A DNA stretch of 44,109 bases from positions 1 to 44,109 of the forward strand of contig JAIFLS010000146.1 of the NCBI GenBank assembly GCA_020048935.1, read 5' to 3'. Position numbers and translations under genes: made by a program. The stretch is from a bacterium. GTDB lineage: Bacteria > Verrucomicrobiota > Kiritimatiellia > UBA8416. The notes below the pieces were generated by a model that was not told the DNA's origin, did no database searches, and saw only the letters and a program-made list of their open reading frames with translations. Positions 3,224-39,628 of the stretch are shown piece after piece; the stretch's first letter is position 1; each line of letters begins with the position of its first letter.

Positions 3224-4708
3224 TTACAGGCCAGCCGGCAGGGAGCCTTCCTCGCGGTAGCGATTGAGCTTGTTTCGCAGCGTGCGGATGCTCACACCGA
3301 GCAGATCGGCCGCCTGGTTGCGCTGCCCATCGGTTTTTTCCATGGCGCGCAGGATGGCATGCCGTTCCAGCTCATCCAGGCATAGCGTCGTGTTGGCCGG
3401 GGAGGGGACCGTGCTGTCCGGGGGACATTCGCTCGCTGCCTTGCCTTCGGCTGGAGGAGAATGGGGATCGCTCTGCCTGGCCGGTTCCTGGGTGGCCGAG
3501 TCCACCGGTGTGCAGATGCTGCCGTGCACTTCGGGCGGTAGCATTGCTGGCGTCAGTTCCGGCCCCTTTTCCATGACGCAGAGACGCTCAATCAGGTGCT
3601 CGAGTTCGCGTACGTTGCCAGGCCACATGTATCGGTACAGTATGTCGAGTGTATCCTGGCGGAACCGCAAGCCATCGGTTTTTCCAGTCAGGTTTCGAAG
3701 ATGCCGTTTGAGAAAGTTGTCTGCCAGCATCGGGATGTCCTCTGGTCTTTCGCGCAAGGGCGGCACATGGATGGGGACGACATTGAGCCGGTAGTATAGA
3801 TCCTGCCGGAAGCCGCCCTCGCGTACATAGCTTTGCAAATCGCGGTTCGTGGTGGCAATGATCCGACATTCCGCGCGCAGCGTTCGGCTTCCGCCAACAC
3901 GTTCGAATTCACGCTCCTGAATTACGCGCAGCAGCTTCGCCTGCAGACCGAGTGGCATCTCGCTGATCTCGTCCAGCAGCAACGTCCCGTTGCCCGCGAG
4001 CTCGAAGCGTCCTGCCCGCCGGTTGATCGCCCCGGTGAAGGCTCCCTTCTCATGCCCGAATAGTTCACTATCGGCCAGCGATTCCGGTACGGCTGCGCAG
4101 TTCATGCGCACAAAGGGACGTTTGCGGTATTCCCCGAGTCCGTGGATGGCCTGGGCCACTAATTCCTTACCCGTGCCGCTTTCGCCTGATATCAGTACCG
4201 TCGAGGAAGAGGCGGCGACGCGTTCAATCTGCTCGATCAGCTTTTGCATGGCGACGGCTTGGCCGAGCAAGCGTTTCCCCTTTGGCATCGACCAACCGAG
4301 CTCTTCCTTGAGATAGTCGTTTTGCGCACTGAGCCGCACCCAATCCTTTGCCCGGTTCAGGACGACCTCCACCTGTTCCGGTGAGAAGGGTTTCATGAGG
4401 AAGTCGACCGCTCCCAGTTTCATCGCTTCCACGGCTTGCTCCACGGTCCCAAAGGCGGTGACCATGACCGTCAGGGTCTCGATGCCCGCCTCCTGCTTCC
4501 AGCGCAGCAGGTCCATGCCGCTGAGAACCGGCATTTTGATGTCGACGAAGGCCATGTCGAAGTCGCGTTCTTCCATCAGTTTCTGTGCCTGTGCCCCATT
4601 ACCGGCCTGCACCACTTCAATTCCGGCTCTTGTGAGTGTTTCCACGACGAATTCACGCATCAGTATATCGTCATCGACCACAAGCACGGTTTCAATGCTG
4701 GAGATCAT
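3224..4708 (-). CDS. NtrC-family sigma-54 response regulator (FlrC/FleR type)
   Basis: 494 aa. Domains in order: receiver (about 5-120, phospho-acceptor Asp in FVDIKMPVLSG), AAA+ sigma-54 activator (about 145-380, Walker A GESGTGKE, intact GAFTGA loop, Walker B LLLDE), and a C-terminal Fis-type helix-turn-helix (NQAADLLGVSIRTLRNKLNR). A Pro/Ser-rich linker of about 40 residues separates AAA+ and DNA-binding parts. The start overlaps the upstream kinase stop by four bases (ATGA), so the pair is coupled. By position, directly before flgB, it is the likely activator of the rod/ring operon; FlrC, FleR and FlbD are the functional analogues. Target assignment is inferred. Confidence 0.93.
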   Translation of the reverse strand: MISSIETVLVVDDDILMREFVVETLTRAGIEVVQAGNGAQAQKLMEERDFDMAFVDIKMPVLSGMDLLRWKQEAGIETLTVMVTAFGTVEQAVEAMKLGAVDFLMKPFSPEQVEVVLNRAKDWVRLSAQNDYLKEELGWSMPKGKRLLGQAVAMQKLIEQIERVAASSSTVLISGESGTGKELVAQAIHGLGEYRKRPFVRMNCAAVPESLADSELFGHEKGAFTGAINRRAGRFELAGNGTLLLDEISEMPLGLQAKLLRVIQEREFERVGGSRTLRAECRIIATTNRDLQSYVREGGFRQDLYYRLNVVPIHVPPLRERPEDIPMLADNFLKRHLRNLTGKTDGLRFRQDTLDILYRYMWPGNVRELEHLIERLCVMEKGPELTPAMLPPEVHGSICTPVDSATQEPARQSDPHSPPAEGKAASECPPDSTVPSPANTTLCLDELERHAILRAMEKTDGQRNQAADLLGVSIRTLRNKLNRYREEGSLPAGL

Positions 4709-9977: not shown

Positions 9978-11354
9978 TCAGACGGTTATGCTGTGTTCCT
10001 TGATTTTTCTCAGCAAGGAACTGCGATGGATATTTAGAATTTCGGCCGCTTGGCCGCGATGTCCGTTCACGTCGTGCAGGACCCGCGTAATCAACAGCCG
10101 CTCGCATTCGGCAAGGCTCATGGACGGAATCACAGAGGTCTGTCCGGTGGGGGCCGGTGGATTGGACGGTATTGCTTGCTTGGTGTTTGGAATGGCAAGA
10201 TCCTTGACATCAATCTCGTTGCCTGTACATAGAATGACGCCGCGTTCGATCGAATGGCGCAGCTCGCGAACGTTCCCCGGCCAGTCATAAGCGCAAAGGG
10301 CATCCATGGCCGCCGCTGTAAATCCGCTAAGGTGGCCGCCGGTTGCTTTCTTGTGCTGATTGAGGCACTGGTTAGCAAGCATCGGAATGCTTTCCGGGTG
10401 CTCGCGAAGTGGTGGCAGAGTCAGGGGAAAAACCGACAAACGGTAATAGAGATCCTCACGGAACGTGCCATCCTTTACCATGTCCTGTAGATTGCGGCAG
10501 GTAGCAGCGACGATGCGCACATCCACCTGAATGACACGGCTCCCGCCTAAACGGCGGAATTGCTTGTCCTCGATCACTTTTAGCAGTTTCGCTTGCAGGG
10601 CGGGGGCCATGTCGCCGATCTCATCGAGGAATACCGTGCCGCCATCGGCGATCTCAAGTAAGCCGGGTTTGCTGGCTTTGGCATCGGTGAAGGCTCCTTT
10701 CTCATAACCGAAAACCTCGCTTTCCATCAATGGCCCCGGAATCGCCGAGCAATTGATGTCGACGAACGGCTTCTCGGCACGTGCGCTGAGACGGTGCACG
10801 GCGGATGCCATCATCCCTTTTCCCGTTCCGCTTTCCCCTAAGAGCAGCACCGTAGTGTCGGGGAAGGTGGCAATGCGCTGTACTTTTGTAAAGAGATTAC
10901 GCAGGGCGCCGCCGCCAATCATCTCGTCGAGCTGCCAGACGTCGCCACCGGAACCGGTCGATAGCCGCGCGAGTCCCTCTACGCGCTCTTCAAGGTTGAC
11001 CGCTTTTTCCACATTCCGGATGATTTTCTCGAGTTGCTCGTTTTCGTAAGGCTTCGGTAAGTAGTCGTAGGCCCCGTTGCGAATGGCTTGAATGGCTGAT
11101 CTGACATCGCTGTGGCCGGTTACAAAAACAACGTAAGCTCGTTTTGATAAGCCGTTGATCTCTTCAAGGAAATGGAAACTGTCGCCGTCGGGTAGTCGCC
11201 GGTCAAGAAAGATCAGCTTGAATTGATTCTCCTTCAGCCGACTGCGCGCGTCGCTTAACGAATCGCAGGCTTTGACGTCGTGGCCTTTGCGCTTTAAAAG
11301 GTCAAACATGACCTTGCGCTGGATTTCGTCATCTTCAACTATTAGAATATCCAT
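9978..11354 (-). CDS. NtrC-family sigma-54 response regulator with GAFTDA loop
   Basis: 458 aa from the ATG at 11354 (MDILIVEDDEIQRKVMFDLL); the longer ORF in the track runs backward through the kinase gene. Domains: receiver (acceptor Asp in LIFLDRRLPDGDSF), AAA+ (Walker A GESGTGKG, LFLDEIGDM-type Walker B as VFLDEIGDM), C-terminal Fis-type helix-turn-helix (GQAAEILNIHRSSLLRKIK). The sigma-54 contact loop reads GAFTDA rather than GAFTGA, a variant found in a subset of these activators. TAATG overlap with the kinase stop couples the two. Together with the kinase it has a sigma-70-type promoter, so it may stand at the top of the flagellar hierarchy. Confidence 0.92.
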   Translation of the reverse strand: MDILIVEDDEIQRKVMFDLLKRKGHDVKACDSLSDARSRLKENQFKLIFLDRRLPDGDSFHFLEEINGLSKRAYVVFVTGHSDVRSAIQAIRNGAYDYLPKPYENEQLEKIIRNVEKAVNLEERVEGLARLSTGSGGDVWQLDEMIGGGALRNLFTKVQRIATFPDTTVLLLGESGTGKGMMASAVHRLSARAEKPFVDINCSAIPGPLMESEVFGYEKGAFTDAKASKPGLLEIADGGTVFLDEIGDMAPALQAKLLKVIEDKQFRRLGGSRVIQVDVRIVAATCRNLQDMVKDGTFREDLYYRLSVFPLTLPPLREHPESIPMLANQCLNQHKKATGGHLSGFTAAAMDALCAYDWPGNVRELRHSIERGVILCTGNEIDVKDLAIPNTKQAIPSNPPAPTGQTSVIPSMSLAECERLLITRVLHDVNGHRGQAAEILNIHRSSLLRKIKEHSITV

Positions 11355-12061
11355 TATGGCGGTGCACTTTCTGCGGCATCGGACGGCGGCATGGGCATGG
11401 TCGGGCAAGATAACGTCACGGTCCATTCGTTCGTTCGGCATGGCGCTAGTTCCGCCGCGCAATCGCCGCCGGTGAGGCGGGCCAGCCGTTGCGCCAACGT
11501 AAGTCCCAAGCCGAGGTGGCGCGGTCGCGTTGTGTAAAACGGGAGGAACGCCTGCTCTCGCAGGGAGGCATCGATGCCAGGCCCAGAGTCGGACACGGTC
11601 CACGTTATGCAGCCCTCGTTCGCCTGCAGGAGCAGGCCGACAATACCTCGCGGAGCAGCCTCGCAGGCGTTGGTCAGGAGTTCTTGCAAGGCGATGCGCA
11701 TAATCGACGGCGCTGCTCCTGCCGCGTCCCCCTGTTGTCGGATCTCTGCATTCGGGAAACGGCGGGCTACGGCCGCCATGGCGTCAGCTGTTATGTCGGA
11801 TACGATCTCTGGCTGAATCGCGGGGGCGCGTTCCCAGAACAGGCTGAATCGATTAGCCATATCGCTTAGCGAATCACACTCCCGGAGCATTAAGGGAAAG
11901 TACTCGCGTAGATCTGGAGCAAGGGTACTTCCTGCATCGGATTCGATGAGGTTCACGGCTCCGCTGATGCCTGAGGCGATGTTCCGGAGACGGTGTCTCA
12001 GCACATGCGACATGCGCTCCAAGTCGTCGGTGCTTAAATGGGGTGGAGTAACTGAAATCAT
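11354..12061 (-). CDS. Small soluble histidine kinase
   Basis: 235 aa from the ATG at 12061. The TTG at 12097 used by the ORF track is the -35 box of the promoter, so it cannot be the start of a transcript from that promoter. The H-box is atypical, MSHVLRHRLRNIASGISG, with His23 the probable phosphorylated residue. The HATPase part has an N-box (LQELLTNACEA), DSGPGID and HLGLGLTLAQ. There is no membrane segment and no sensor domain. It partners the overlapping NtrC-type regulator (TAATG). What it senses is unknown; a partner protein is likely needed. Confidence 0.88.
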   Translation of the reverse strand: MISVTPPHLSTDDLERMSHVLRHRLRNIASGISGAVNLIESDAGSTLAPDLREYFPLMLRECDSLSDMANRFSLFWERAPAIQPEIVSDITADAMAAVARRFPNAEIRQQGDAAGAAPSIMRIALQELLTNACEAAPRGIVGLLLQANEGCITWTVSDSGPGIDASLREQAFLPFYTTRPRHLGLGLTLAQRLARLTGGDCAAELAPCRTNEWTVTLSCPTMPMPPSDAAESAPP

Positions 12062-12068
12062 TACTTTT

Positions 12069-12097
12069 CTTATACATCTCGCGTCGGTCGGTGTCAA
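12069..12097 (-). promoter_or_regulatory. Sigma-70-type promoter for kinase/regulator pair
   Basis: Minus strand TTGACA (12097-12092), 17-nt spacer, TATAAG (12074-12069): 11 of 12 consensus bases at ideal spacing. The ATG at 12061 begins eight bases after the -10 box, so the expected start point falls at or one base before the start codon, with no room for a ribosome site. Confidence 0.75.
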
Positions 12098-16864: not shown

Positions 16865-16990
16865 AGAAAACGAAACAAAAAACACTTGATCGTTCGTTCA
16901 TGGAGCAAATATTGCCGTTGGTGGTGAGGGAGGAGGGTATATCAGGAAACTATTGCCTTTAAAGAGGCGCGAGTACCGCGGTTTGAGCCG

Positions 16991-17006
16991 TGGCACCGGC
17001 ATTGCT
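16991..17006 (+). promoter_or_regulatory. Sigma-54 (-24/-12) promoter for fliW-csrA
   Basis: TGGCACCGGCATTGCT, with GG/GC doublets 10 nt apart and the full TGGCAC and TTGCT boxes. Expected start about 17017, giving a leader of roughly 78 nt to the fliW ATG at 17095. It may also drive csrA and flagellin B, since no other promoter is obvious before them. Confidence 0.85.
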
Positions 17007-17094
17007 ATATGGATGCTGTCGCGTTTCGCTGGCCGGAGGCGGGGCGCGGCAGGCATCAGCTAAGGCAGTATCTGGCGAAAAAGGGGACATAGAC

Positions 17095-19126: not shown

Positions 19127-19597
19127 ATGACAACGGAAAAACGGGTGGACACCATAGAGGTTAACTCCTTTGAGGAGTACACGCTGTACTCGCTTGATCA
19201 ATCGTCCGGTGCCATTCTTGGCATGATGGATCGCAGCAAGCAGATCGCCTCGCAATGGCCCGATCTGGCGTCGATGTCCTGTCTGCCAGGGTTATGCAAG
19301 GATGTGGCGGCGTTGTCGAGCTACCAGCACTCCCTGAATGTGGCGGTCGGTGACTTTGATGGGGACGCAGGCGGCTCCTGGCTGCGAGCCCGGGACGCGT
19401 TGCAGGCAGTAATGAACGCCTTACAGGATTCGATAAACATCAATGATCCGGATGTTATCAAGCAGATTTTCGGCTTTGCCTTGCCGGGGGCGTTGAATGA
19501 TTTCATGATCGCGATCCCCGGCCTGAAACAACATGTCGCGGGGATGATCAGCGAGGTTCAGCCCGACGTTGTCGCGGGCAATAGCGAAGGGGTCTGA
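19127..19597 (+). CDS. Hypothetical protein before Maf-like glycosyltransferase
   Basis: 156 aa, ATG preceded by an AAAGGA-type site. I do not recognise the family. It is acidic, mainly helical, with no signal peptide or membrane span; EEYTLYSLDQSSGAILGMMD and FGFALPGALNDFMIAIPGLK are distinctive stretches. The stop overlaps the start of the Maf-like gene by one base (TGATG), so the two are translated together. This suggests a helper of the glycosyltransferase or a flagellin-binding factor, which is inference. It is the first gene after the flagellin B terminator; no clear promoter was found. Confidence 0.75.
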   Translation: MTTEKRVDTIEVNSFEEYTLYSLDQSSGAILGMMDRSKQIASQWPDLASMSCLPGLCKDVAALSSYQHSLNVAVGDFDGDAGGSWLRARDALQAVMNALQDSININDPDVIKQIFGFALPGALNDFMIAIPGLKQHVAGMISEVQPDVVAGNSEGV

Positions 19598-21417
19598 TGG
19601 AATCCGAGTGGTTACTGGCGTTGAAAGCGGCGGATGGCGAGGCGGCGGACGTGTTTCTGGATGAACCTCCGGTGCCTGCTGGAGATGATCCGCTTATGGC
19701 TGTCGATGACCCTCTGGGCATCGTCCGCGAGTGGCTTGGTCAATGCGTTCCGACGCCGAATGTCGTAATCGTGCCGGGCGTTTCTCAAATTGTCCTGATT
19801 GAGCCGTTGTTGCAGCTTAAAACCTCGATGAATATTCTAGTTCTCGAGCAGAATGTGAATAAGCTGCGTTGCGCCCTTGATGCCGCCGATAGCCCGGCTC
19901 TGGCCGCAGCGATTCGAGCCGGACGGCTACGGATTGATCCCGGCGAGTCATCTCTATCCACGGCCGAGCGATTTCTTTGTGCTGCCGATTTCTCCCGTTG
20001 TCCCCGAATTCGCCTCCTGGATATACTGCCGGTCAGTTCAGAGGACATGGACATGGCCACGGAGATGACCAAGGATGTCCGCGAATTGATCCGGTTTCAG
20101 GCTTGTGACCTCTCAACCCGGTTGCGTTTCGGTGCCGAATGGCAAGAGCAGACCCTGCTCAATCTGCCCCGGATTCTCCAGCATGCGCCGCTGTCTGCCT
20201 TGTTCAAGCAATTCAAGGGCACGTCGGCTCTGGTTGTGGCGGCGGGGCCATCACTGAACGATGCCATTCCTTTTATCAAGAGATTCAGGAATCGATTCCT
20301 GCTGATCTGCGTGGGACGGGTGAGCACCTTTCTTCAAAATCAGGGGATTGTGCCGGATTTGATTGTTACAGGCGATGGGCAGCATTACGTCAGGGACCAT
20401 TTCAAGAACAAACCGGCGGGGGTGCCGGTTGCCGCCAGTTGCTTTACGGATCCGGCCGTGATTAATAAACTTGATCGTGTCTTTTTCATGGAGTTGGTTT
20501 CAATGCGCCTGCCCGAATGGCTGCGGCCAAAGGTCGGTGAGCAGGGCGAGATCTACCCGGGCGGGAATGTGTCGACGGCAGCTATGTCGGTCGCGGCGGC
20601 ACTGGGTTGCAGCCCGGTTGTGACGGTGGGTTTTGACTTGAGCTATTCTCCTGATGGAAGGACGCATGCGGCAAGCAAGAGCGGGGGCGGTCTGCCTAAG
20701 GGAGAAACGTACTTCGATGTTCCCGGAAACTTCCAGGATACGGTCAAGACGAATCGGCAGATGTTTCACTATATCGGTTTCGCAAAGGAGTTTGTTGCTG
20801 AGCGCCCGGAGGTACGCTTTGTCAATCTCAATACGGCCGGGGCGCGAATCGAAGGTATGGAGATTGCGAGGCACGGGGAACTGGAAAGGTATGCAGGCCC
20901 CGAAATCGATGCCGCACGACGAATCGCGGCCTTATATGAGTCATGCGCCGGGGAGCCTGAACGCTCTGCAACTTGTATCAAAGGCTTGCGGGACGATATT
21001 CCGGTCCTGCAATCGCTGCGGATGGAGTGCATGCAGGCCGCCATGGTTTGTAATCAGATGATCATGCTGATGCGGCGGCCGGGGACGGTAAAAGATCCGG
21101 AAACGGTGTTGCGCGAACATCTTGACCGCGTGGCCCCGGTGGATACCCGGCTCAAGACCGATCCGATTATGGACTTGCTGGAGGCGCGGCTGGAGGGCGT
21201 CTCGAACGCGTTGACCGAGCGCATGGTCTCGCATGAGGAACGGGCCATGTCGCCCGCGGTTCGAAGCCATCGTCGCTGGCGTGATTATTACACCGCGGTT
21301 GCCGATGCCTGCCAGATGTCACAGGGGCTCTTGGAGAACATAGTCTCAAAACTTGAATCGTCGTCCTGTGCGGCGTCTTGCGATAATCCGGGAAAACGAA
21401 TGGAGGTAGCCGTATGA
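19597..21417 (+). CDS. Motility accessory factor (Maf/DUF115) flagellin glycosyltransferase
   Basis: 606 aa. Central DUF115/MptE-like domain: LVVAAGPSLNDAIPFIKRF (GPSL motif), GIVPDLIVTGDGQHYVRDHF, and GGNVSTAAMSVAAALGCSPV then VGFDLSYSPDGRTHA. This is the Maf family, which transfers nonulosonic acids such as pseudaminic acid to flagellin before export in the cytoplasm. N- and C-terminal helical parts are less conserved. It is coupled to the genes on both sides (one-base overlap before, ATGA overlap with fliS). The CMP-sugar would come from the pse genes at 33-36 kb. Substrate is inferred from context. Confidence 0.88.
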   Translation: MESEWLLALKAADGEAADVFLDEPPVPAGDDPLMAVDDPLGIVREWLGQCVPTPNVVIVPGVSQIVLIEPLLQLKTSMNILVLEQNVNKLRCALDAADSPALAAAIRAGRLRIDPGESSLSTAERFLCAADFSRCPRIRLLDILPVSSEDMDMATEMTKDVRELIRFQACDLSTRLRFGAEWQEQTLLNLPRILQHAPLSALFKQFKGTSALVVAAGPSLNDAIPFIKRFRNRFLLICVGRVSTFLQNQGIVPDLIVTGDGQHYVRDHFKNKPAGVPVAASCFTDPAVINKLDRVFFMELVSMRLPEWLRPKVGEQGEIYPGGNVSTAAMSVAAALGCSPVVTVGFDLSYSPDGRTHAASKSGGGLPKGETYFDVPGNFQDTVKTNRQMFHYIGFAKEFVAERPEVRFVNLNTAGARIEGMEIARHGELERYAGPEIDAARRIAALYESCAGEPERSATCIKGLRDDIPVLQSLRMECMQAAMVCNQMIMLMRRPGTVKDPETVLREHLDRVAPVDTRLKTDPIMDLLEARLEGVSNALTERMVSHEERAMSPAVRSHRRWRDYYTAVADACQMSQGLLENIVSKLESSSCAASCDNPGKRMEVAV

Positions 21418-22180: not shown

Positions 22181-22196
22181 TGGCACGGAGGCTGCT
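22181..22196 (+). promoter_or_regulatory. Sigma-54 (-24/-12) promoter
   Basis: TGGCACGGAGGCTGCT: full TGGCACG box, TGC box and correct 10-nt doublet spacing. Expected start about 22207, three bases before the ATG at 22210. Confidence 0.78.
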
Positions 22197-26949: not shown

Positions 26950-26965
26950 TGGCATGAGGGCTGCT
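26950..26965 (+). promoter_or_regulatory. Possible internal sigma-54 promoter or hairpin before flgI
   Basis: TGGCATGAGGGCTGCT has the right doublet spacing for sigma-54, with a start about 26976. The same stretch can also pair with AGCAGCC at 26932-26938 to form a bulged hairpin after flgH, without a T-run. The two readings are not exclusive. Confidence 0.45.
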
Positions 26966-30331: not shown

Positions 30332-30361
30332 CAGAACGCAAACTCGAATCAGGAGGAAAAG

Positions 30362-30517
30362 ATGAAGGCAATCATTAAGCAAGAAGAGAATTTGAAATCC
30401 AAGGTAACGGTCAAGAAAAGCACGGTGGCTACCGACTGCTTGCAACAGGCGGCCGATTGGCTGGGGCTCTACAGTCGTATTCTGGAAAACCTGCAGATGG
30501 CGAGGGTCGCCCGGTGA
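30362..30517 (+). CDS. 51-aa small protein after flgK (not in ORF track)
   Basis: ATG at 30362 preceded by AGGAGGAAAAG, one of the best ribosome sites in the window. The product (MKAIIKQEENLKSKVTVKKS to LYSRILENLQMARVAR) has a basic N-terminal half and an amphipathic C-terminal helix. It starts 30 nt after flgK and overlaps the following HAD-like gene by GTGA (30514-30517), so it is likely co-translated. I know no family. Possible roles include a small regulator or a chaperone; neither is shown. A small gene with strong translation signals here is real in my view. Confidence 0.7.
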   Translation: MKAIIKQEENLKSKVTVKKSTVATDCLQQAADWLGLYSRILENLQMARVAR

Positions 30518-31230
30518 GAGCACCCGGCGAGAACGCAGATACATCATCATGCAGTACATCCCGCCCGACGGTTATTTGCTGGCTGGATGATGTGCTTTAT
30601 CCCGCGCGCATGTATCATGCGGGCGCCTGTCGTGCCGGGGCGGGATTGCTGCGCCGCCTGATCGGCGTCGATATGCATGAGGCCCTTTCGGCTTGCTATA
30701 TTCCGGGACGGGAAGAGGATACTGTACGCAAGGTTCTTTCAGGCGTCGGCACAAAAACCGATGAACGGCTCGTCCGCAAGGTTGCCGAGGCCATGGCTGT
30801 ACATACACCGCAGGTTGCACCCTATGAGGATGCGCTTGAGACCTTTGGAATTCTGCAGGCGCTAGGAATCTCACTCTGGTTGATTGGCGAAGGCCCGCCA
30901 CGCGCACAGCGCATGGTTGCTGATCGACTGGGGATTGGCCGCGTGTTTCAGGGGGTGGCTTATTCGGATCCTTTCCAGAGTAAGTACGAATGGCAGGATT
31001 CTCTTATGTTACTGGAACTCGCCGCTGGAGTGGAGGCCGAACAGTCCGTGCTGGTGTGTGCAGATCCGGTCCGCGTGGCCGCCATCGCGAAACAGGGCAG
31101 GCGTGTCTATTACCTTGATCGACAGGCGGATTCAAACGTTCACCGCCCGCAGGTGCCTAACGTGATCCCGATGCTGAACCTATACGACCTGCCGGAAGCG
31201 CTGGGGTTAGTGGCTTGGGATCTGCATTGA
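30514..31230 (+). CDS. HAD-fold protein lacking catalytic residues
   Basis: 238 aa from the GTG at 30514, which overlaps the stop of the small gene (GTGA); the track start at 30457 would overlap that gene almost fully. The shape is that of HAD phosphatases such as the two others here. Motif I reads VICWLDDVLYP, where the nucleophilic Asp (FDLDDTLY in the family) is Trp. Motif II reads LWLIGEGPP instead of VVVVTDG, and motif IV reads VLVCADPVRVAAIA instead of IGDxxxxD. It is probably a non-catalytic relative with a binding role. Last gene before the rpoN promoter. Confidence 0.75.
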   Translation: MRAPGENADTSSCSTSRPTVICWLDDVLYPARMYHAGACRAGAGLLRRLIGVDMHEALSACYIPGREEDTVRKVLSGVGTKTDERLVRKVAEAMAVHTPQVAPYEDALETFGILQALGISLWLIGEGPPRAQRMVADRLGIGRVFQGVAYSDPFQSKYEWQDSLMLLELAAGVEAEQSVLVCADPVRVAAIAKQGRRVYYLDRQADSNVHRPQVPNVIPMLNLYDLPEALGLVAWDLH

Positions 31231-31241
31231 CGCACTCCGTT

Positions 31242-31258
31242 TGTCGCAATATGCGACA
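31242..31258 (+). repeat. Short hairpin after the pseudo-HAD gene
   Basis: TGTCGC/GCGACA perfect 6-bp stem with a 5-nt loop, 11 nt after the stop. A T-run (about 31284-31289) follows only after some 25 nt, so termination is possible but weakly supported. The rest of 31,259-31,353 is AT-rich and shows no gene. Confidence 0.45.
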
Positions 31259-31353
31259 GGAATCATACGGTCCGATGCGGATGCCTTTTTTCAGCAAAAC
31301 GTAATGTATTGTTAATCAAATATTTGCGATATTTAATCAGCAACGTTAAAGGT

Positions 31354-31369
31354 TGGCACGCATATTGCA
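31354..31369 (+). promoter_or_regulatory. Sigma-54 (-24/-12) promoter of rpoN itself
   Basis: TGGCACGCATATTGCA matches TGGCACG-N4-TTGCW at every defined position, with 10 nt between doublets. Expected start about 31380, about 41 nt before the rpoN ATG. AT-rich DNA upstream (31,300-31,350) would suit activator binding or IHF-type bending. Confidence 0.88.
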
Positions 31370-31420
31370 TTGGTAATCGTCAGCGAAGTGTTGTTAATTA
31401 CTCTTTGATTGGCGGGAACC

Positions 31421-32959
31421 ATGAATATAAATTTCAACTTGTCCGGTAATGTCTCCCAGCAGCAGCAGCTTAATCTGGCACCACAACTGCTGCAATGGCT
31501 GCGCCTTCTTCAGGTGCCGGCGCAGCATCTGGAACAGATGGTTCGAAGTGAGATTGAAACCAATCCCGCGCTGGAAGTTGATGAGAGTGCCCCCGCCGCA
31601 CCGGATGACGCCGACCTTTGCGCCGAGCCGTCCGCGGATGTGCGTGACGCGGATTCCGAGCGTGAAGGCAGGGAATTGGAGGAGCGTTTTGAGATCCTTG
31701 CTGAAATCGATTCGCAATGGGCGGATGAAAACCGCAATATGGCGGGCGAGGACATCGGTCGCACGCAGGATCGGATCGACTATCAGTTGCAGTCACTGGC
31801 GTCTGCCTCTTCCCTCCAGGAACATCTTCTTCGTCAGTTGGCGGTGATGAATCGGCCGGATGTCCTAAAGGTCAATGCGGGATTAATTGTTGGAATGCTG
31901 GATGAGCGCGGCTATCTGGACGTCTCGCTGGATGAATTGGCTGAAGAGCTCGCGATTGCGGTTGAGATGGTGGAGGATTCCCTCGCGGTGGTTCAGGAAT
32001 GTGATCCGATTGGCGTTGGTGCCCGTGACTTGCGTGAATGTCTCCTCTTGCAGCTATCGCCGACGGACGACGCCCATGTGGTAGCCCGGAGGATCGTATC
32101 TCGCTATATCGAGGCGCTGGCGCGTGGGCAGCTTGATGGCATCGCCCGTCAGTTGGGGGTGTCTTTGGCCGAGGTTGAGTCAGCAGTAAAGCTGATCCGC
32201 ACGCTTAACCCGACTCCCGGCAAGACGTTTGAAGAGCAGAAGATGGTTACGCAGACGGTGACTCCCGATATTGCCATCCGGCGCAACGCGGAGGGGGGCT
32301 TTGATATTGAATTGGTTGAACAGTCGCTGCCGCGACTGCGCATCAGCCCTTATTGCCGACGCATGATCGAGCAGGGCGGCTTGTCAAAAACGGATTTGGC
32401 CTATATTCGTTCCCGTATCCGTGCCGCCTCTTTCCTGATAGAGGGACTTGAAAAACGCGGGTCGACATTGCGGCGCATTGCAGAGGAGATTATCCGCGGC
32501 CAGCACCGCTTCCTGCGGGGGGAGGAAAGCGAGATCCGGCCCCTGACCATGGCCAAGGTGGCGAGCTTTATCGGGGTGCATGACACCACCGTCAGCCGTG
32601 CCCTGGCTGACAAGTATGTCGCCACGCCGGTTGGCGTGTTGCCCATGAAAGCGTTTTTCTGCACCGGATATCGGTGCGATGATGGCAGTGCCATGACCCC
32701 GGAAATGGTGCGGCGACGCATCGGGCAGATGATTCTCGATGAAGAACCCGGAAAACCGATCAAGGACGAATGTATTGCTGCGCAGTTGCGTGAAAGTGGT
32801 GTTGCGGTAGCCCGTCGTACGGTTGCCAAATATAGAGGGGAATTGGGGTTGCCCTCTTCAAAGGAACGTGCGCAGGCACGCCGCCAGGGCCTACGGGTTA
32901 TCCATGGCTCCGGCAAGCCTCCTGCAGGCATGGAACCGGTGGCGGTGGCTTTTGGATAA
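31421..32959 (+). CDS. rpoN: RNA polymerase sigma-54 factor RpoN
   Basis: 512 aa from the ATG at 31421; the track uses a TTG at 31409 with no ribosome site, while GGCGGGAA precedes the ATG. Region I is Gln/Leu rich (NVSQQQQLNLAPQLLQWLRL). The acidic region II follows (DDADLCAEPSADVRDADSER). The core-binding part leads to a helix-turn-helix (VASFIGVHDTTVSRALADKY) and the RpoN box (ARRTVAKYRGELGLPSSKER), both intact. It recognises the -24/-12 promoters found before flgB, flgF, fliW and others, and its own. First gene of the operon with pseF, pseG and pseI. Confidence 0.97.
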   Translation: MNINFNLSGNVSQQQQLNLAPQLLQWLRLLQVPAQHLEQMVRSEIETNPALEVDESAPAAPDDADLCAEPSADVRDADSEREGRELEERFEILAEIDSQWADENRNMAGEDIGRTQDRIDYQLQSLASASSLQEHLLRQLAVMNRPDVLKVNAGLIVGMLDERGYLDVSLDELAEELAIAVEMVEDSLAVVQECDPIGVGARDLRECLLLQLSPTDDAHVVARRIVSRYIEALARGQLDGIARQLGVSLAEVESAVKLIRTLNPTPGKTFEEQKMVTQTVTPDIAIRRNAEGGFDIELVEQSLPRLRISPYCRRMIEQGGLSKTDLAYIRSRIRAASFLIEGLEKRGSTLRRIAEEIIRGQHRFLRGEESEIRPLTMAKVASFIGVHDTTVSRALADKYVATPVGVLPMKAFFCTGYRCDDGSAMTPEMVRRRIGQMILDEEPGKPIKDECIAAQLRESGVAVARRTVAKYRGELGLPSSKERAQARRQGLRVIHGSGKPPAGMEPVAVAFG

Positions 32960-32981
32960 GCATTTGGAGAACGCTGGCGTG

Positions 32982-33698
32982 ATGAACGTAGCCATTATAC
33001 CGGCACGCGGTGGCAGCGAACGGATTCCTCTCAAGAACATCCGGGATTTCTGCGGGAAACCGATGCTGGCCTGGTCGATAGAATCGGCGCTGCAAAGCCG
33101 TTGTTTCGCACGCGTTATCGTTTCAACCGATAACGAGGAAATTGCCGATGTGGCCAGGCATTATGGTGCTGAAGTCCCGTTTCTGCGGCCGCGTTTGCTG
33201 TCCGATGCACACACGGGATTAGAGGCCGTTCTCTGGCACGGGGTTGAATGGCTGGATGCGGCAGGAATGGATCTGAACTATGTCTGCTGTGTTTTTGCAA
33301 CCGCGCCATTCGTGACATCCGCGGCGCTACGGGACGGCTTGGCTGCACTTGAGCGGGCACCGCTCCGCCAGTTCTCACTTTCCGTGACCAGCTATCCGTT
33401 CCCGGTTCAGCGCGCCGTCCGGATGACCGCCGATGGTGGCGTCCAACCTTTATATCCTGAATTCATGAAAACCCGGTCGCAGGATTTGGAAGGTGCGTTT
33501 CACGAGGCCGGTCAATTTTTCTGGGCACGACCCGAGGCGTTACGCCAGCGGCTCCCGGTCTATGCGCCGGGCGCGTCGGTTCCGGTTGTGATTCCGCGTT
33601 GGCGGGTCCAGGATATTGACACAATGGAAGACTGGGCGCAGGCGGAACTCCTATTCCGCGCATTAAGGACGGTGTCGGATAATGCGAATTGCATTTAG
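32982..33698 (+). CDS. pseF: Pseudaminic acid cytidylyltransferase PseF
   Basis: 238 aa from the ATG at 32982 (MNVAIIPARGGSERIPLKNI); the track start at 32823 overlaps the rpoN end. It activates pseudaminic acid with CTP to give CMP-Pse in the cytoplasm. The nucleotide-binding ARGGSERIPLKNI, the VIVSTDNEEIADVARHYGAE stretch and the DIDTMEDWAQAELL end are those of the CMP-nonulosonate synthetases. PseF is preferred over NeuA or LegF because PseG and PseI follow. It overlaps pseG by 17 nt. Confidence 0.9.
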   Translation: MNVAIIPARGGSERIPLKNIRDFCGKPMLAWSIESALQSRCFARVIVSTDNEEIADVARHYGAEVPFLRPRLLSDAHTGLEAVLWHGVEWLDAAGMDLNYVCCVFATAPFVTSAALRDGLAALERAPLRQFSLSVTSYPFPVQRAVRMTADGGVQPLYPEFMKTRSQDLEGAFHEAGQFFWARPEALRQRLPVYAPGASVPVVIPRWRVQDIDTMEDWAQAELLFRALRTVSDNANCI

Positions 33699-34758
33699 AA
33701 CCGATGCTTCTGTCAAGATCGGGGTCGGGCATGTAGTCCGGTGCCTGAATCTGGCTCGGGCATTGCGAGCGCAAGGGGAGCAGGTTTCATTCCTGTGCCG
33801 GGAGACCGAGGGGCATGCCGGACCGCTGATTGCCGAAAACGGCTTTCCGGTACATCTGCTTGCGGTCACGGACCGCGACGGGATACATCATCCGCATGGG
33901 CAGGGTGCCTGGGGGCGGCGCGAGGCGTTGATGGATGTCGATGCGTGCTGCTTGCATTTGAAAGATCAACTGGACTGGTTGGTCGTTGACCATTATGGAT
34001 TAGACGCCTGCTGGGAAACGGCAATACGAGCCAAGGCGGCGCGGGTCATGGTCATTGATGATCTTGCCGACCGCCCGCATGATTGCGAGCTGTTGCTTGA
34101 TCAGAATCTCCTGCCGTCACTTGAAACACGCTACCTCCAGCGGGTGCCCGCGCACTGTCGTTGCCTTTTGGGTCCCGGTTATGCATTGCTCGATGACGAC
34201 TTCGGCAGGTTGGCCTGCCAGGCAGGCGTACGTCACCATGTGCAGCGCCTGCTTGTCTTCTTCGGTGGAGGAGATGAAGGCAACCTGACCGCCCGTGCAT
34301 GGCGTGAATTGGATGAACTCGGGCTTGAAGGCGATGTTGTCGTCGGTAGAGCAAATCCTCATCTGCCCGAGGTGGAGTCGCTTTGCAAGAAAAATGCGTC
34401 TCGCTGGACGCTGCATGTTCAGACAAGACACATGGCTGAATTGATGCTGGACGCCGATCTGCTGATTGGTGCAGGCGGAACCACGCACTGGGAGCGCTGC
34501 CTGCTTGGCTTGCCCGCCATAACGGTTACGGTGGCCGCCAATCAGGTGCAGGTAACCGAGATGCTTGCCGCCGCGGAAACCTGTTTTTATGCTGGACCTT
34601 CAGAATTGCTCAAGGACGGCGATATTCGTCAAGTGGTTCTGCGGTTGATCGCAGATCCGTGCCAACTGGAAAAAATGAGTCGTGCGGCGTGCACAATCGT
34701 TCCTGATGGCAATGGAAAAATCAAAGTGGCAGCCGCCATGGGGGTGGTATCCGGTTGA
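33682..34758 (+). CDS. pseG: UDP-2,4-diacetamido-trideoxy-altropyranose hydrolase PseG
   Basis: 358 aa. PseG removes UDP from the bacillosamine-like precursor, giving the free sugar used by PseI. The N-terminus has RTDASVKIGVGHVVRCLNLA, with GHVxRC typical of this GT-B fold hydrolase, and the C-terminal half has ADLLIGAGGTTHWERCLLGL PAITV. WLVVDHYGLDACWETAIRA and VMVIDDLADRPHDCELLLDQ NL are further PseG stretches. The start overlaps pseF; the next gene begins 42 nt later. Cytoplasmic. Confidence 0.92.
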   Translation: MRIAFRTDASVKIGVGHVVRCLNLARALRAQGEQVSFLCRETEGHAGPLIAENGFPVHLLAVTDRDGIHHPHGQGAWGRREALMDVDACCLHLKDQLDWLVVDHYGLDACWETAIRAKAARVMVIDDLADRPHDCELLLDQNLLPSLETRYLQRVPAHCRCLLGPGYALLDDDFGRLACQAGVRHHVQRLLVFFGGGDEGNLTARAWRELDELGLEGDVVVGRANPHLPEVESLCKKNASRWTLHVQTRHMAELMLDADLLIGAGGTTHWERCLLGLPAITVTVAANQVQVTEMLAAAETCFYAGPSELLKDGDIRQVVLRLIADPCQLEKMSRAACTIVPDGNGKIKVAAAMGVVSG

Positions 34759-34799
34759 GGCGCGAGCCCCGCTGCTGGGGTCAAAATGAATGGGAAAAT

Positions 34800-35855
34800 A
34801 TGAACGATATCCGCATTGGTCAGCACGGTGTCGGGGCCAGTCATGCCCCTTTTATTATTGCCGAGATGTCAGGCAATCATGGCCAGAGGCTCGATCTGGC
34901 CCTGCGGTTGGTGGATGCCGCCGCCGAAGCGGGTGCCCACGCGCTGAAATTACAGACGTATACCGCCGACACGATGACACTGGATCTGAAGGATGGCGAT
35001 TTCTTTATTAACGATCCAAATAGCCTTTGGAATGGGAACTCGCTTTACGAGCTCTACCAGAAGGCGTCAACCCCCTGGGAATGGCACAAGCCGATATTTG
35101 ACAGGGCGCGTCAGCGAGGCCTGGTTCCTTTCAGTACGCCGTTTGATTCCACCGCGGTGAATTTGCTCGAATCGCTGGATGTGCCCTGCTACAAGATTGC
35201 ATCGTTCGAGAATGGTGACCTGCCTTTGATCCGGCGTGTGGCGGCGACCGGTAAACCGCTGATCATGTCCACGGGCACCGCGACCCTCGAAGAGTTGACC
35301 GAGGCCGTCGAGGCGGCGAGGGGGGCCGGCTGTAAAGATCTGATTCTGCTTAAGTGCACGAGCCGGTATCCATCGGTGGCCTCCGATCTCAATCTGGCGA
35401 CGCTTTCATTTCTGGCCAAGCAGTTTGATTGTCTCGTCGGTGTATCCGATCATACCTTGGGAACGCTCGTCCCTGTGGCCGCCGTGGCTCTCGGTGCCTG
35501 CGTGGTGGAGAAGCATTTCACGATGGACCGTGAAGAGGGCACGATTGACGCCGCGTTTTCGTTGGAACCCGACGAGCTGAAGCGGTTGGTTCATGAAACC
35601 GAATTGGCGTGGCAGGCGGTGGGACGAGTGTGCTGTGAACCCCTTGAAGGCGAACAGGCATCGCGTCGTCACCGCCGCAGTTTATATGTGGTCAAGGACA
35701 TTCCCGCCGGTGAGCGGTTAACGCCGCAGAATATCCGGGCGATCCGTCCAAATGCCGGGCTGCCGCCGAAATATTACGACCAGGTCATGGGTTCGGTTGC
35801 CACCCGTGATTTGCCCCGCGGCACCCCATTGTCCAAGGATATGGTTTCCAAATGA
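34800..35855 (+). CDS. pseI: Pseudaminic acid synthase PseI
   Basis: 351 aa from the ATG at 34800 (MNDIRIGQHGVGASHAPFII); the TTG at 34755 in the track is less likely. PseI condenses phosphoenolpyruvate with the 6-deoxy sugar from PseG. The TIM-barrel part has AEMSGNHGQRLDLALRLVDA and the metal/substrate motifs KLQTYTADTMT and VVEKHFTMDREEGTIDAAFS. The C-terminal SAF (antifreeze-like) domain is RSLYVVKDIPAGERLTPQNI to GTPLSKDMV. AAFSLEP fits PseI better than NeuB. Overlaps the next gene by four bases. Confidence 0.92.
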   Translation: MNDIRIGQHGVGASHAPFIIAEMSGNHGQRLDLALRLVDAAAEAGAHALKLQTYTADTMTLDLKDGDFFINDPNSLWNGNSLYELYQKASTPWEWHKPIFDRARQRGLVPFSTPFDSTAVNLLESLDVPCYKIASFENGDLPLIRRVAATGKPLIMSTGTATLEELTEAVEAARGAGCKDLILLKCTSRYPSVASDLNLATLSFLAKQFDCLVGVSDHTLGTLVPVAAVALGACVVEKHFTMDREEGTIDAAFSLEPDELKRLVHETELAWQAVGRVCCEPLEGEQASRRHRRSLYVVKDIPAGERLTPQNIRAIRPNAGLPPKYYDQVMGSVATRDLPRGTPLSKDMVSK

Positions 35856-36856
35856 ATGTAGAACCTCAAAATCCGGATGGCGCGGGTCTCGCGTTGAAAG
35901 GCAGGATTGCTGCGGGCCACTGGTTGCTGACCAGTGCCGGTGCCAAAGTCGATCTAACCCGTCGGATGCGCTGTGCTTTGAATGCAACAGGCTGTCGTCT
36001 ATATGTGGCCGATAGCTCATTATTATCTGCTGCATTCGCCTTTGCGGATGGACATTTTCTGTTGCCTGCTTTGGAAGACGAGTGTTTCATCCCTGAATTG
36101 ATCGCTGCCTGTATCCAGAGGCAAATCAATGTGCTTTTGCCAAGTCGAGATGCGGAGTTGCTCTTTTTTGCGCGGCACCGGGCGGTGTTCGAGGCCTCTG
36201 GCATCCGTCCGCTGGTATCGGCGCTGGACAGCATAGAACTCTGCCGTGACAAAATCCGCTTTCACGCGCATTGCCTGCAAAACGGAGTGCCGGTGCTGCC
36301 ACGCATTGAATGTCCCTGCGCGGCCGGTTTCCCCTGCTTTGTGCGTCCGCGCGTGGGTGCGGCCAGCGCCGGTGCGGGGCGTATCCAAAGTTTGGCGCAC
36401 ATGCACGCCTTGTATGGGGAACCGCCGTGGGAGGATTTGCTTGTGCAGTCATGTTGCCGTGATGACGAATTCAGCATAGATGCCCTTTTTGGCCCCGATG
36501 GAGAGGTTGTCCAGTGGATTGCCCGGCAACGCATTCGAGTCAAGGCAGGCGAGTCGGTGGTCAGTCGAACGGTTCGGCTGCCTGCGTTTGAGCCCGTGAT
36601 CAACACGCTCGCGTCCTCCATGCGGCTTTTCGGTCCGATTACCCTGCAGGCCTTTTTCTCGCCCGAAAATGGTGTCCATCTAATCGAGATCAATCCGCGT
36701 TTCGGTGGTGCTTGCGCGCTTGGAAACGAGGCTGGATTGGAAGCGCCTGAGCGTCTTGTTGCATTCGTCCAGGGGGATATGGAAAACTTTTATCGCCTGC
36801 GCTCCTTACGCTATGATTTAACCCTGTTGCGGTACAGTCAGGATCTCTTCATCTAA
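35852..36856 (+). CDS. ATP-grasp family protein of the pse operon
   Basis: 334 aa, start overlapping the pseI stop (ATGA). Carbamoyl-phosphate-synthase-like ATP-grasp fold: ASGIRPLVSALDSIELCRDK precedes the domain, PCFVRPRVGAASAGAG is the flexible lysine-type loop, though the lysine is Arg here, and VHLIEINPRFGGACALGNEA is the metal-binding C-terminal motif. Such enzymes ligate a carboxylate to an amine or thiol with ATP. In flagellin-sugar clusters they are thought to add or alter groups on the nonulosonic acid; the actual substrate is unknown. Confidence 0.85.
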   Translation: MNVEPQNPDGAGLALKGRIAAGHWLLTSAGAKVDLTRRMRCALNATGCRLYVADSSLLSAAFAFADGHFLLPALEDECFIPELIAACIQRQINVLLPSRDAELLFFARHRAVFEASGIRPLVSALDSIELCRDKIRFHAHCLQNGVPVLPRIECPCAAGFPCFVRPRVGAASAGAGRIQSLAHMHALYGEPPWEDLLVQSCCRDDEFSIDALFGPDGEVVQWIARQRIRVKAGESVVSRTVRLPAFEPVINTLASSMRLFGPITLQAFFSPENGVHLIEINPRFGGACALGNEAGLEAPERLVAFVQGDMENFYRLRSLRYDLTLLRYSQDLFI

Positions 36857-36859
36857 GTT

Positions 36860-37519
36860 ATGCGCCTTGATGCCTATCGATTATTCCTGGTGGATATGGA
36901 TGATACGCTTTTCGAAGAGCGTGCATTTGTATTGAGCGGCCTGCGTGCGGTGGCGGATTTTGTTGAGCAATGGGGGCTTTGCCCGGCAACCGCCTGCCGA
37001 TTTCTGCTGGAGCGGTTCGAACGGTGTGGCAGGGACCGGATCTTCAATCATCTGCTTGCCCACTTTAATACGGAGGAGAGCCAGAGTCGCATCGCGCAAC
37101 TGGTTTCGGTCTATCGCTGCCATCGCCCTGATATCCGGCTCTATCCAGGGGCTGAACAGGTGCTGGAGCTCCTTCGTGCCCGGGGGCGGGTGGTTGTGGT
37201 GACCGACGGGCTGGCTGAGGTGCAGGAACGGAAGTTCAAGGCGTTAGGACTTGAGTCGATGGTGGACCAAGTCGTGTATTGTCATGCCGCCGGATTCCCG
37301 AAACCGGACGCCCGCGCACTCGCTGGGATTGTTTGCAAAGGAACCGCTGAGGCCGTCCTGATTGGGGATCGTCCCGATCACGATCTGGCGATGGCCGCCA
37401 ACCTCGGCATCGATTCCGTCAGGGTGCGCACCGGCCGTTTTGCCCGGATTGATAATACGCCTTGGGTGCCGATTGCCGATCTGGCTTCGATGATGAAGCT
37501 AAACGAAATCCTGCTCTGA
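36860..37519 (+). CDS. HAD-superfamily phosphatase (pse operon copy)
   Basis: 219 aa. Full HAD motif set: LFLVDMDDTLFEERAF (motif I with nucleophile and acid Asp), VVVVTDGLAEVQERKF (motif II), Lys in FPKPDARAL (motif III), VLIGDRPDHDLAMAANLGID (motif IV). It starts three bases after the ATP-grasp stop, last gene of the rpoN-pse operon. Its 3' end overlaps the opposing hybrid kinase by 21 nt. Close paralogue of the gene at 40,682. A sugar-phosphate phosphatase is likely. Confidence 0.9.
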   Translation: MRLDAYRLFLVDMDDTLFEERAFVLSGLRAVADFVEQWGLCPATACRFLLERFERCGRDRIFNHLLAHFNTEESQSRIAQLVSVYRCHRPDIRLYPGAEQVLELLRARGRVVVVTDGLAEVQERKFKALGLESMVDQVVYCHAAGFPKPDARALAGIVCKGTAEAVLIGDRPDHDLAMAANLGIDSVRVRTGRFARIDNTPWVPIADLASMMKLNEILL

Positions 37520-39505
37520 ATCGGCTTGCTCGGCCTGGCTTTGATTCCTGCGCATGACGCCGTTGATCTTGGCAATCAGATCCTTAGTGACGAAAGGTTT
37601 CTGGATAAAGTCAACGCCTTCGTCGAGTACCCCGTGCTGGCTGATCACATCTGCGGTATAGCCGGACATGAACAGGCAGCGTGTCTCGGGGTGGAGCGTC
37701 TGTATATAGCCAAATAGGGTTCGCCCATTCATGTCGGGCATGATGACATCGGTCACGAGCAGATCAATGTTCTCTTTGCAGTCGCGGGCAAGCTCAATGG
37801 CCTTATTGGGGTTATTGGCGGGCATTACCTGGTAGCCGATTCGGTTTAACATGCCTCCGATCATTTCAAGCAGGGCTCTGTTGTCCTCGACGAGCAGTAT
37901 GCGCTCGTGGCAACTGTTATGTTGAACATCCGTGAGGTTCTGCTGCGCCGGGCTGGGAGGCTGTTTCCTGAAGAGGGGTAGATAAATCTCGAATTCAGTT
38001 CCTGTGCCAAGTTTGCTTTTTACCGCGATAAAACCATGGTTCTGCCTCACGATACCGTATACGGTTGCAAGTCCAAGCCCAGTCCCTTTGTCAATGGGTT
38101 TGGTCGTAAAGAACGGTTCGAAAATATTAGACATGGTCTCTGCATCCATGCCGCAGCCATCATCATTCACCGCCAGGAGGGCATACTCGCCAGGGATGAA
38201 ATCGACATGCTCCAGGCACTGTTCGGCATCCAGGGTTTTTACTGCCGTCTTGATCGTTATGGATCCCGTATCGGCTATCGCGTCTCTAGCGTTAACGCAG
38301 AGATTCGCGAGAATCTGGTCGATTTGAGAAGGATCCATGCGTACGCTGCCCACATTATTACCAGGCGCCCAAGTCAAGTTAATCCCTTCGCCAACCAGGC
38401 GGCTGAGCATTTTCAGAATACTCTCGACGGCCTGATTCAGGTCAAGCACCACGGGAATGGCGTTTTGTTTGCGGGCAAATGCCAGCAACTGGCGGGTCAA
38501 GTCCGCGGAACGCTGGGCGGCCGTGCGGATCTCGTTCAGGCTTTCGATAATCGGATCCTGTCCAGTCGTCTGGCTGATCAACAGTTCGGTATGGCCGAAG
38601 ATGACACCAAGCATATTGTTGAAATCGTGTGCAACACCACCCGCCAGGCGTCCCACAGCCTCCATTCTCTGCGCCTGGGTCAACTGGGTCTGCAGTCTTT
38701 CGCGTTCAAATTCTGCCTGTTGGCGAGACGTCATATCAATATCAATGCGGAAAAGTTCCGGTTCCCGGTTGGCGTTGCGAACAACGGCATGGCTCGATAA
38801 AACGGTGACGATGCTGCCGTCTTTCCGGACCATATTCAGTTCGCATGTGGGGATCGCCCCTCCGGTATCAATCATTTTCCGGATGGACTCCGCAACTTCC
38901 TCCCGCATGGCTTCGGGGGTGATCAAGTCGAGCACGTTGCGGCCAATCGCCTCGTCCGCAGCGTAGCCATAAAGCTTCGCCGCGGCCCTGTTCCAGTACT
39001 GGATAATGCCGTCGGCGTTGTAACCCTGGACGGCTACGGCCGGTACATCCTGGAACAGGCTTCGAAAGCGCTTTTCACTTTCCTTGAGCGCATTTTCGGC
39101 GGAGCGCAACAACCGTTCGGATTCAATGGCGCGCAGGGTCCGTTCGATGACGCCAGGCAATATATGGGTCAGGTTGTTATCCTTGACCAGATAATCGGCG
39201 GCACCGAATTTCATCATTTCAACAGCCAGACGCTCGTCCCCTTGGCCCGTCATCACGACAAACGGAACGCGAATCCCATGTAGCGACAGCGTACTGATCA
39301 CATCTTGGCCGGTCATGTCAGGCAACTGCTGGTCCAGCAGCAGCACATCCACCCGCCCCCCGATGATGCGGTTGATTGCATCGCGTCCGCAGACCACGCC
39401 TTCGGCTTGTAATCCCGTGCTAATCAGCATCTTGATAATAAGGCTGTTTAGCAGCTCGTCATCCTCAACGACCAGAACAGATTTGCGCGTTGTTGTGTCA
39501 GTCAC
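37499..39505 (-). CDS. Hybrid receiver-PAS-histidine kinase-receiver protein
   Basis: About 668 aa from the GTG at 39505, which has GGGAG upstream; an ATG at 39559 without a ribosome site is an alternative. Domains: N-terminal receiver (VLVVEDDELLN; Asp in LLLDQQLPDMTG), PAS (YNADGIIQYWNRAAAKLYGY), HisKA with H-box GGVAHDFNNMLGVIFGHTEL, HATPase (DDGCGMDAE, DKGTGLGLATVYG), C-terminal receiver (ILLVEDNRAL; Asp in LLVTDVIMPDMNG). No membrane segments. The DFNNxLxVI H-box type is typical of environmental hybrid kinases. It is opposed to the pse operon; its link to flagella is unproven. Confidence 0.92.
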   Translation of the reverse strand: MTDTTTRKSVLVVEDDELLNSLIIKMLISTGLQAEGVVCGRDAINRIIGGRVDVLLLDQQLPDMTGQDVISTLSLHGIRVPFVVMTGQGDERLAVEMMKFGAADYLVKDNNLTHILPGVIERTLRAIESERLLRSAENALKESEKRFRSLFQDVPAVAVQGYNADGIIQYWNRAAAKLYGYAADEAIGRNVLDLITPEAMREEVAESIRKMIDTGGAIPTCELNMVRKDGSIVTVLSSHAVVRNANREPELFRIDIDMTSRQQAEFERERLQTQLTQAQRMEAVGRLAGGVAHDFNNMLGVIFGHTELLISQTTGQDPIIESLNEIRTAAQRSADLTRQLLAFARKQNAIPVVLDLNQAVESILKMLSRLVGEGINLTWAPGNNVGSVRMDPSQIDQILANLCVNARDAIADTGSITIKTAVKTLDAEQCLEHVDFIPGEYALLAVNDDGCGMDAETMSNIFEPFFTTKPIDKGTGLGLATVYGIVRQNHGFIAVKSKLGTGTEFEIYLPLFRKQPPSPAQQNLTDVQHNSCHERILLVEDNRALLEMIGGMLNRIGYQVMPANNPNKAIELARDCKENIDLLVTDVIMPDMNGRTLFGYIQTLHPETRCLFMSGYTADVISQHGVLDEGVDFIQKPFVTKDLIAKINGVMRRNQSQAEQADSEQDFV

Positions 39506-39628
39506 CGTTTGAACTCCCGTTTTCGCTACGCTGTGTGTCGGTGAAAATATTGATCGCATTAGGAAATCGCTTTCAGTCTATGGCGACATATCGGTAAAAG
39601 CAAATTCAAACTCGATATTCTGTAGAGC

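Follow-up and report, generated by a model that had tools for sequence, protein, structure and literature searches.

The closest described counterparts of the gene considered here are specialised paralogues of the sigma-54 factor RpoN. According to the excerpted account in PMC7277832, RpoN2 of Rhodobacter sphaeroides (the Fla1 system) is a flagellar-cluster sigma-54 paralogue that serves flagellar genes with its own enhancer-binding protein (EBP), beside another sigma-54 that has other functions. In Xanthomonas, a second sigma-54 is encoded together with flagellar regulators (fleQ-vemR-rpoN2), and the expression of flgG requires it (PMC6637908). In Mesorhizobium loti and Rhizobium etli, a specialised paralogue is encoded in the prxS-rpoN2 operon, whose transcription starts at a sigma-54 promoter and involves a cognate activator; experiments in M. 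loti found that RpoN1 or basal RpoN2 starts this operon with NifA (PMC3538637). In the relevant parts of a survey (PMC12316311), predicted sigma-54 promoters were enriched before sigma-54 genes in several classes, Verrucomicrobiia and Planctomycetia among them, and the authors inferred autoregulation. In this study, we describe an rpoN gene in a stretch of 44,109 nt (contig JAIFLS010000146.1, assembly GCA_020048935.1; hereafter, the window) from a bacterium of the phylum Verrucomicrobiota, and the class concerned is probably Kiritimatiellia. Judged by its sequence, this gene is a second, flagellar sigma-54 (RpoN2) and not the housekeeping copy.

The present case differs from each of these systems. 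The R. sphaeroides protein is alphaproteobacterial, the likeness drawn here is one of function, and the excerpted account describes no RpoN-dependent promoter of rpoN2 itself (PMC7277832). In Xanthomonas, the fleQ operon ends with rpoN2, whereas rpoN2 of the window's type is preceded by a conserved -24/-12 site of its own and, in most genomes, is separated from the EBP gene. The prxS-rpoN2 operon serves nitrogen fixation, has rpoN2 as its second gene and is activated by NifA (PMC3538637). The survey, in those same parts, neither sets flagellar paralogues apart nor mentions Kiritimatiellia or pseudaminic acid (PMC12316311). The apparent novelty lies in the lineage and in the joining of three features, namely a sigma-54 dedicated to the flagellum, sigma-54 control of the gene for it that is conserved, and an EBP partner that is conserved as well. 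Features known singly, from the flagellar copies of Rhodobacter and Xanthomonas and from the sigma-54-driven rpoN of rhizobia, are found together here and are conserved in 8 families of a class that has received little study.

The RpoN protein of the window contains all three sigma-54 domains (PF00309, PF04963 and PF04552), scores over the cut-off of TIGR02395 and carries the RpoN box ARRTVAKYR at position 464. The list of open reading frames (ORFs) begins the gene at TTG 31409, but the alignment of the RpoN2 relatives begins at ATG 31421, which makes this TTG an unlikely start. A class-wide search of 346 genomes with an RpoN profile gave a clear split in the scores, with 16 genomes at 550-882 bits and the next at 505 bits. 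We refer to the copies of these 16 top-scoring genomes as RpoN2 and to the other, housekeeping copy as RpoN1. RpoN1 is also present in 14 of the 16 carriers, and the genomes of the remaining two have completeness values of 59% and 69%. In a protein tree of 41 sequences, which left out the RpoN2 of G108, a branch with 100/100 support divides RpoN2 from RpoN1, and the window copy falls in RpoN2.

The sequence-only reading of this locus had raised the matter of a second, housekeeping rpoN. None was found in the window's own assembly (2.39 Mb, 69% complete), but one exists in the congener G001 (Verrucomicrobia bacterium UBA6015, contig DIZZ01000077.1, 93% complete), where one of two rpoN genes is 68% identical to the window copy and occupies the equivalent place in the flagellar cluster, and the other is 40% identical. 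These two copies, together with the tree, rule out the window rpoN as a sole or housekeeping copy. In the congener, RpoN1 adjoins an mfd-like gene (named by eye from its sequence), for which the window's assembly has no match. Because this neighbour is missing too, the gap is best explained by incompleteness, and the claim that RpoN1 is truly absent from the window's genome was dropped. This case also cautions that, where a genome is incomplete, the gene called "rpoN" may be a specialised copy.

The distribution of RpoN2 follows that of the flagellum. Of the 346 genomes, 16 have FlgI, and 15 of these carry RpoN2; stated the other way, FlgI occurs in 15/16 RpoN2 genomes versus 1/330 genomes without RpoN2 (Fisher's test 4e-24, shared ancestry ignored). 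The carriers are spread among 8 families, and several of these families include FlgI-less genomes as well. A search of 388 sampled genomes of the phylum gave no RpoN2 outside the class at a threshold of E <= 1e-150. The neighbours of RpoN2 genes are flgK, flagellin genes, fliD or the gene for an EBP that we name EBP2, and the congener retains the gene order flgF-to-flgK, HAD, rpoN, pseF, pseG. One RpoN2 genome (G164, 89% complete) has its RpoN2 beside a flagellin gene and is without FlgI. RpoN2 can be used as a marker for the flagellated members of the class. Separately, FlgI lies in two overlapping frames in a single-contig genome (G126:C1:1937744-1938774), either by sequencing error or as a broken flagellar gene.

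A perfect sigma-54 promoter had been proposed before rpoN, and this proposal was borne out. The site TGGCACGCATATTGCA begins 67 nt and finishes 51 nt upstream of the ATG, and it is the sole 12/12 match to TGGCACG-N4-TTGCW on both strands of the window, in which approximately 0.01 such matches are expected by base counting. A GG-N10-GC site, usually in the form TTGGC[AT]CAC...TGCT, is located 49-83 nt upstream of the start in all 16 RpoN2 genes, and shuffles of the same upstream sequences would yield 0.25 sites at the observed scores. Nothing resembling a sigma-70 site was found in 30300-33100, nor anything resembling a terminator between rpoN and pseF. With the promoter retained in 16/16 orthologues, sigma-54 control of the window rpoN is a well-supported prediction, and the promoter is presumably active. 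Because RpoN2 is nearly confined to flagellated members and a sigma-54 promoter precedes every RpoN2 gene, it is probable that this motility sigma factor is turned on via sigma-54 itself, which may also amplify its expression.

Further sites of this kind occur nearby and before RpoN1. A second sigma-54-like site, TGGCTTGGGATCTGCA (9/12, 31211-31226), lies where the HAD-like gene that precedes rpoN ends, and four genomes (G021, G026, G046 and G324) have an additional GG-N10-GC site 139-223 nt before rpoN2 that ends in CTGCTAA or similar; rpoN2 may possibly have tandem promoters. An equal scan of the RpoN1 upstream regions gave a site in 10/40, some of them strong; therefore, RpoN1 is perhaps sigma-54-controlled in a few lineages. 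Near the start of RpoN1, G036 (L021) has an 11/12 site, and G131 (L124) and G135 (L125) have one at almost the same position.

Sites that could bind an activator are located farther upstream. The perfect repeat TGTCGCAATATGCGACA has the form TGTCG-N7-CGACA, and a repeat of this form also occurs upstream of rpoN2 in G021 and G026, with a copy in G325 (TGTCGGGCCCTGCGACA). Across the 16 rpoN2 upstream regions, TGTCG/CGACA half-sites number 37 versus 11.2 +/- 3.2 in shuffles (approximately threefold), and a de novo ranking of 6-mers placed GTCGGA first, in 11/16 regions versus 2.3 in shuffles; both figures overstate independence because five Pontiella-like sequences are related. These half-sites look like putative activator sites. 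Our claim of enrichment is limited to half-sites upstream of rpoN2. The exact palindrome is not clearly enriched over the reversed control given below, so that it was dropped as a genome-wide regulon mark, and the idea that it is common to the other flg sites was dropped, as it was not seen there.

The most likely activator of the rpoN2 promoter would be EBP2 with the adjoining histidine kinase HK2, with EBP1 as the alternative. The EBP2 gene begins at 11603 (GTG) in the ORF list, and its relatives align from approximately 11354. Orthologues in 13 further RpoN2 genomes have 48-70% identity and score 446-780 bits, with the best other EBP at 346 bits; the two RpoN2 genomes without an orthologue are 59% and 79% complete. 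In G026, EBP2 is close to rpoN2.

We consider it fairly probable that RpoN2 serves as a flagellum-dedicated sigma-54 paralogue in some, scattered members of the class and that it is expressed through a two-step relay, in which RpoN1 and a flagellar activator start rpoN2 and RpoN2 may then sustain itself. A phosphorylated flagellar EBP, most likely EBP2 with HK2, would bind the upstream TGTCG/CGACA sites and open the sigma-54 polymerase positioned on the -24/-12 site of rpoN2. The first transcripts would probably be made via the housekeeping RpoN1, which is found in nearly all carriers. RpoN2 would then transcribe the flg and fliW operons and perhaps also read its own promoter. The M. loti prxS-rpoN2 operon offers an experimental precedent for such a mechanism (PMC3538637). 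In the window's genus, the transcript would run on into pseF-pseG-pseI-ATP-grasp-HAD, so that the sugar enzymes would be co-expressed with RpoN2. Paralogy, flagellar co-occurrence, promoter conservation, half-site enrichment and EBP2 co-occurrence were computed; we infer the identity of the activator and the sigma factor as well as the feedback.

Several points weigh against this relay, which is itself a picture computed from sequences. The Fisher values take no account of shared ancestry, and one genome (G006, 89% complete) has FlgI but is without RpoN2. The RpoN2 promoters of Pontiella-like genomes reach just 8-9 of the 12 consensus positions. The TGTCG-N7-CGACA repeat is exact upstream of rpoN2 in just some genomes, and 6 exact sites occur in the 2.39 Mb versus 2 in the reversed control. 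In all EBP2 proteins, GAFTDA replaces GAFTGA. PMC4641369 lists GAFTDA among the activation-competent variants, but PMC10714721 leaves open a loss of interaction in the case of another protein. Finally, rpoN2 could also receive transcripts by read-through from the flg operon that precedes it.

The strongest alternative, which we regard as a serious but less favoured candidate, is a relay without feedback: RpoN1 and the activator would read the rpoN2 promoter by themselves, and RpoN2 would serve different flagellar promoters as the next step of a cascade. This possibility agrees with the presence of RpoN1 in 14/16 carriers and with the flg sites of the window's genus, which have a CTGCT -12 element and a G-rich spacer and thus differ from the rpoN2 site. 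In addition, paralogous sigma-54 factors can hold separate promoter sets, as cited for R. sphaeroides in PMC7277832 and PMC3162934. However, the RpoN box is identical in RpoN1 and RpoN2 and the helix-turn-helix region is similar; therefore, a consensus site is probably readable by either sigma. In M. loti, it appears that either sigma factor can work at the promoter of rpoN2 (PMC3538637). A bolder and rather doubtful extension would treat the flagellum of this class as a travelling module with its own sigma-54 and EBP, in which a promoter read by both RpoN1 and RpoN2 would make motility a bistable switch that RpoN1 starts and RpoN2 locks. Cultivated strains of the group have not been seen swimming despite flagellar genes in at least one (PMC10880615), and the species described with full flagellar gene sets yet seen as non-motile would represent the off state.

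The feedback of sigma-54 on its own gene, as first proposed, survives as sigma-54 control, for which all 16 promoters speak. Simple positive feedback is not supported because the gene is a flagellar paralogue and RpoN1, where present, could drive the promoter by itself. We therefore consider it very unlikely that the locus represents a single autoregulated rpoN with flagellin glycosylation in the same switch. The perfect promoter, the tight pse run and the single rpoN of the window's assembly would suit such an arrangement, but two rpoN genes are present in the congener and in each of 13 further genomes, the window copy lies within the RpoN2 clade, and the pse linkage is found in this genus alone, with PseI over the cut-off in 3/24 genomes. 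It is equally improbable that the -24/-12 match is fortuitous and that rpoN2 is mainly transcribed by read-through from the flgF-flgK-HAD operon, which has the same strand, its own sigma-54-like site and a 190-nt gap after the HAD-like gene in its favour, but against which stand a site at a nearly fixed distance in 16/16 genomes though the upstream genes mostly differ, a weak terminator-like site at 31270-31282 and the fact that transcription would remain sigma-54 dependent anyway.

The favoured relay yields a candidate regulon and a candidate activator site, and it offers a testable reason for the non-motile appearance of isolates that carry full sets of flagellar genes.

The genes that follow rpoN form the tight pseF-pseG-pseI-ATP-grasp-HAD run that had been described, as confirmed by PseF, PseG and PseI matches over the cut-offs and by the measured spacing. 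A gap of 22 nt separates rpoN from pseF, and pseF and pseG overlap by 17 nt. The pseI ORF is open from TTG 34755, with ATG 34800 as the likelier start; the distance from pseG is 41 nt from this ATG and becomes a 4-nt overlap only if the TTG is used. The pseI and ATP-grasp genes overlap by 4 nt, and 3 nt separate the ATP-grasp gene from the HAD gene. The congener has the order rpoN-pseF-pseG, with pseI on another contig, and no pse operon follows rpoN2 at the other 14 loci. The linkage is thus restricted to the window's genus (2/16), and PseI is over the cut-off in just 3 of the 24 genomes tested, so a general tie between pse genes and RpoN2 is ruled out. Glycosylation within the same switch therefore holds as a gene order here and fails as a rule; co-expression of the sigma factor with the enzymes for a flagellin sugar is plausible for the window's species, in which rpoN2 and the pse run would be co-transcribed. 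Because a Maf-type protein adjoins the flagellin genes, flagellin would be a reasonable target of the sugar. PseC is encoded elsewhere in the window's genome (G000:C90). A CckA-related hybrid histidine kinase (37499-39559) is convergent with the end of the pse run and overlaps it. The coordinates of all features are given in Table 1.

Table 1. Features of the window that concern rpoN2, its proposed activators and the flagellar and pse genes.
Feature	Position	Strand	Basis or remark
EBP1, second flagellar enhancer-binding protein, GAFTGA, alternative activator	3224..4708	-	Same position in congener
EBP2, response-regulator enhancer-binding protein, GAFTDA, proposed activator	9978..11354	-	Orthologues in 14/16 RpoN2 genomes
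HK2, histidine kinase adjoining EBP2, proposed partner	11354..12097	-	
Sigma-54-like site before fliW, probable co-regulated operon	16991..17006	+	11/12
MptE-like (Maf-type) protein beside flagellin genes, candidate glycosyltransferase using the sugar	19597..21417	+	PF01973
Sigma-54-like site before flgF-flgK operon	22181..22196	+	11/12; kept in congener as TGGCACGCAGTCTGCT
Sigma-54-like site before flgI	26950..26965	+	10/12; kept in congener as TGGCACGCAGGCTGCT
Perfect inverted repeat TGTCGCAATATGCGACA, proposed activator-binding site (upstream activator sequence)	31242..31258	.	95 nt upstream of promoter
Sigma-54 -24/-12 promoter of rpoN2 (predicted), TGGCACGCATATTGCA	31354..31369	+	12/12 consensus match; conserved in 16/16 orthologues
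rpoN2, flagellum-type sigma-54, 512 amino acids	31421..32959	+	Domains; TIGR02395; RpoN2 clade 100/100
pseF, pseudaminic acid cytidylyltransferase	32982..33698	+	TIGR03584 over NCBIfam cut-off
pseG, UDP-sugar hydrolase	33682..34758	+	TIGR03590 over NCBIfam cut-off
pseI, pseudaminic acid synthase	34800..35855	+	TIGR03586 over NCBIfam cut-off
ATP-grasp protein, PRK12767-like, presumed sugar-tailoring role	35852..36856	+	
HAD-family hydrolase, final gene of run	36860..37519	+	Convergent with hybrid kinase 39559-37499

Three observations concern other genes of the flagellar cluster. The fliW ORF as listed (16990-17634) begins at a GTG within its own promoter, and ATG 17095 is the likely start. The HAD-like gene between flgK and rpoN (30457-31230) occupies the same place in the congener, with 51% identity. 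An AsnB asparagine-synthase gene (12129-14042) lies within the cluster and also adjoins fliD in G116 (L126:2166-4049, 47% identity); a role of AsnB in amidation of the flagellin sugar is possible.

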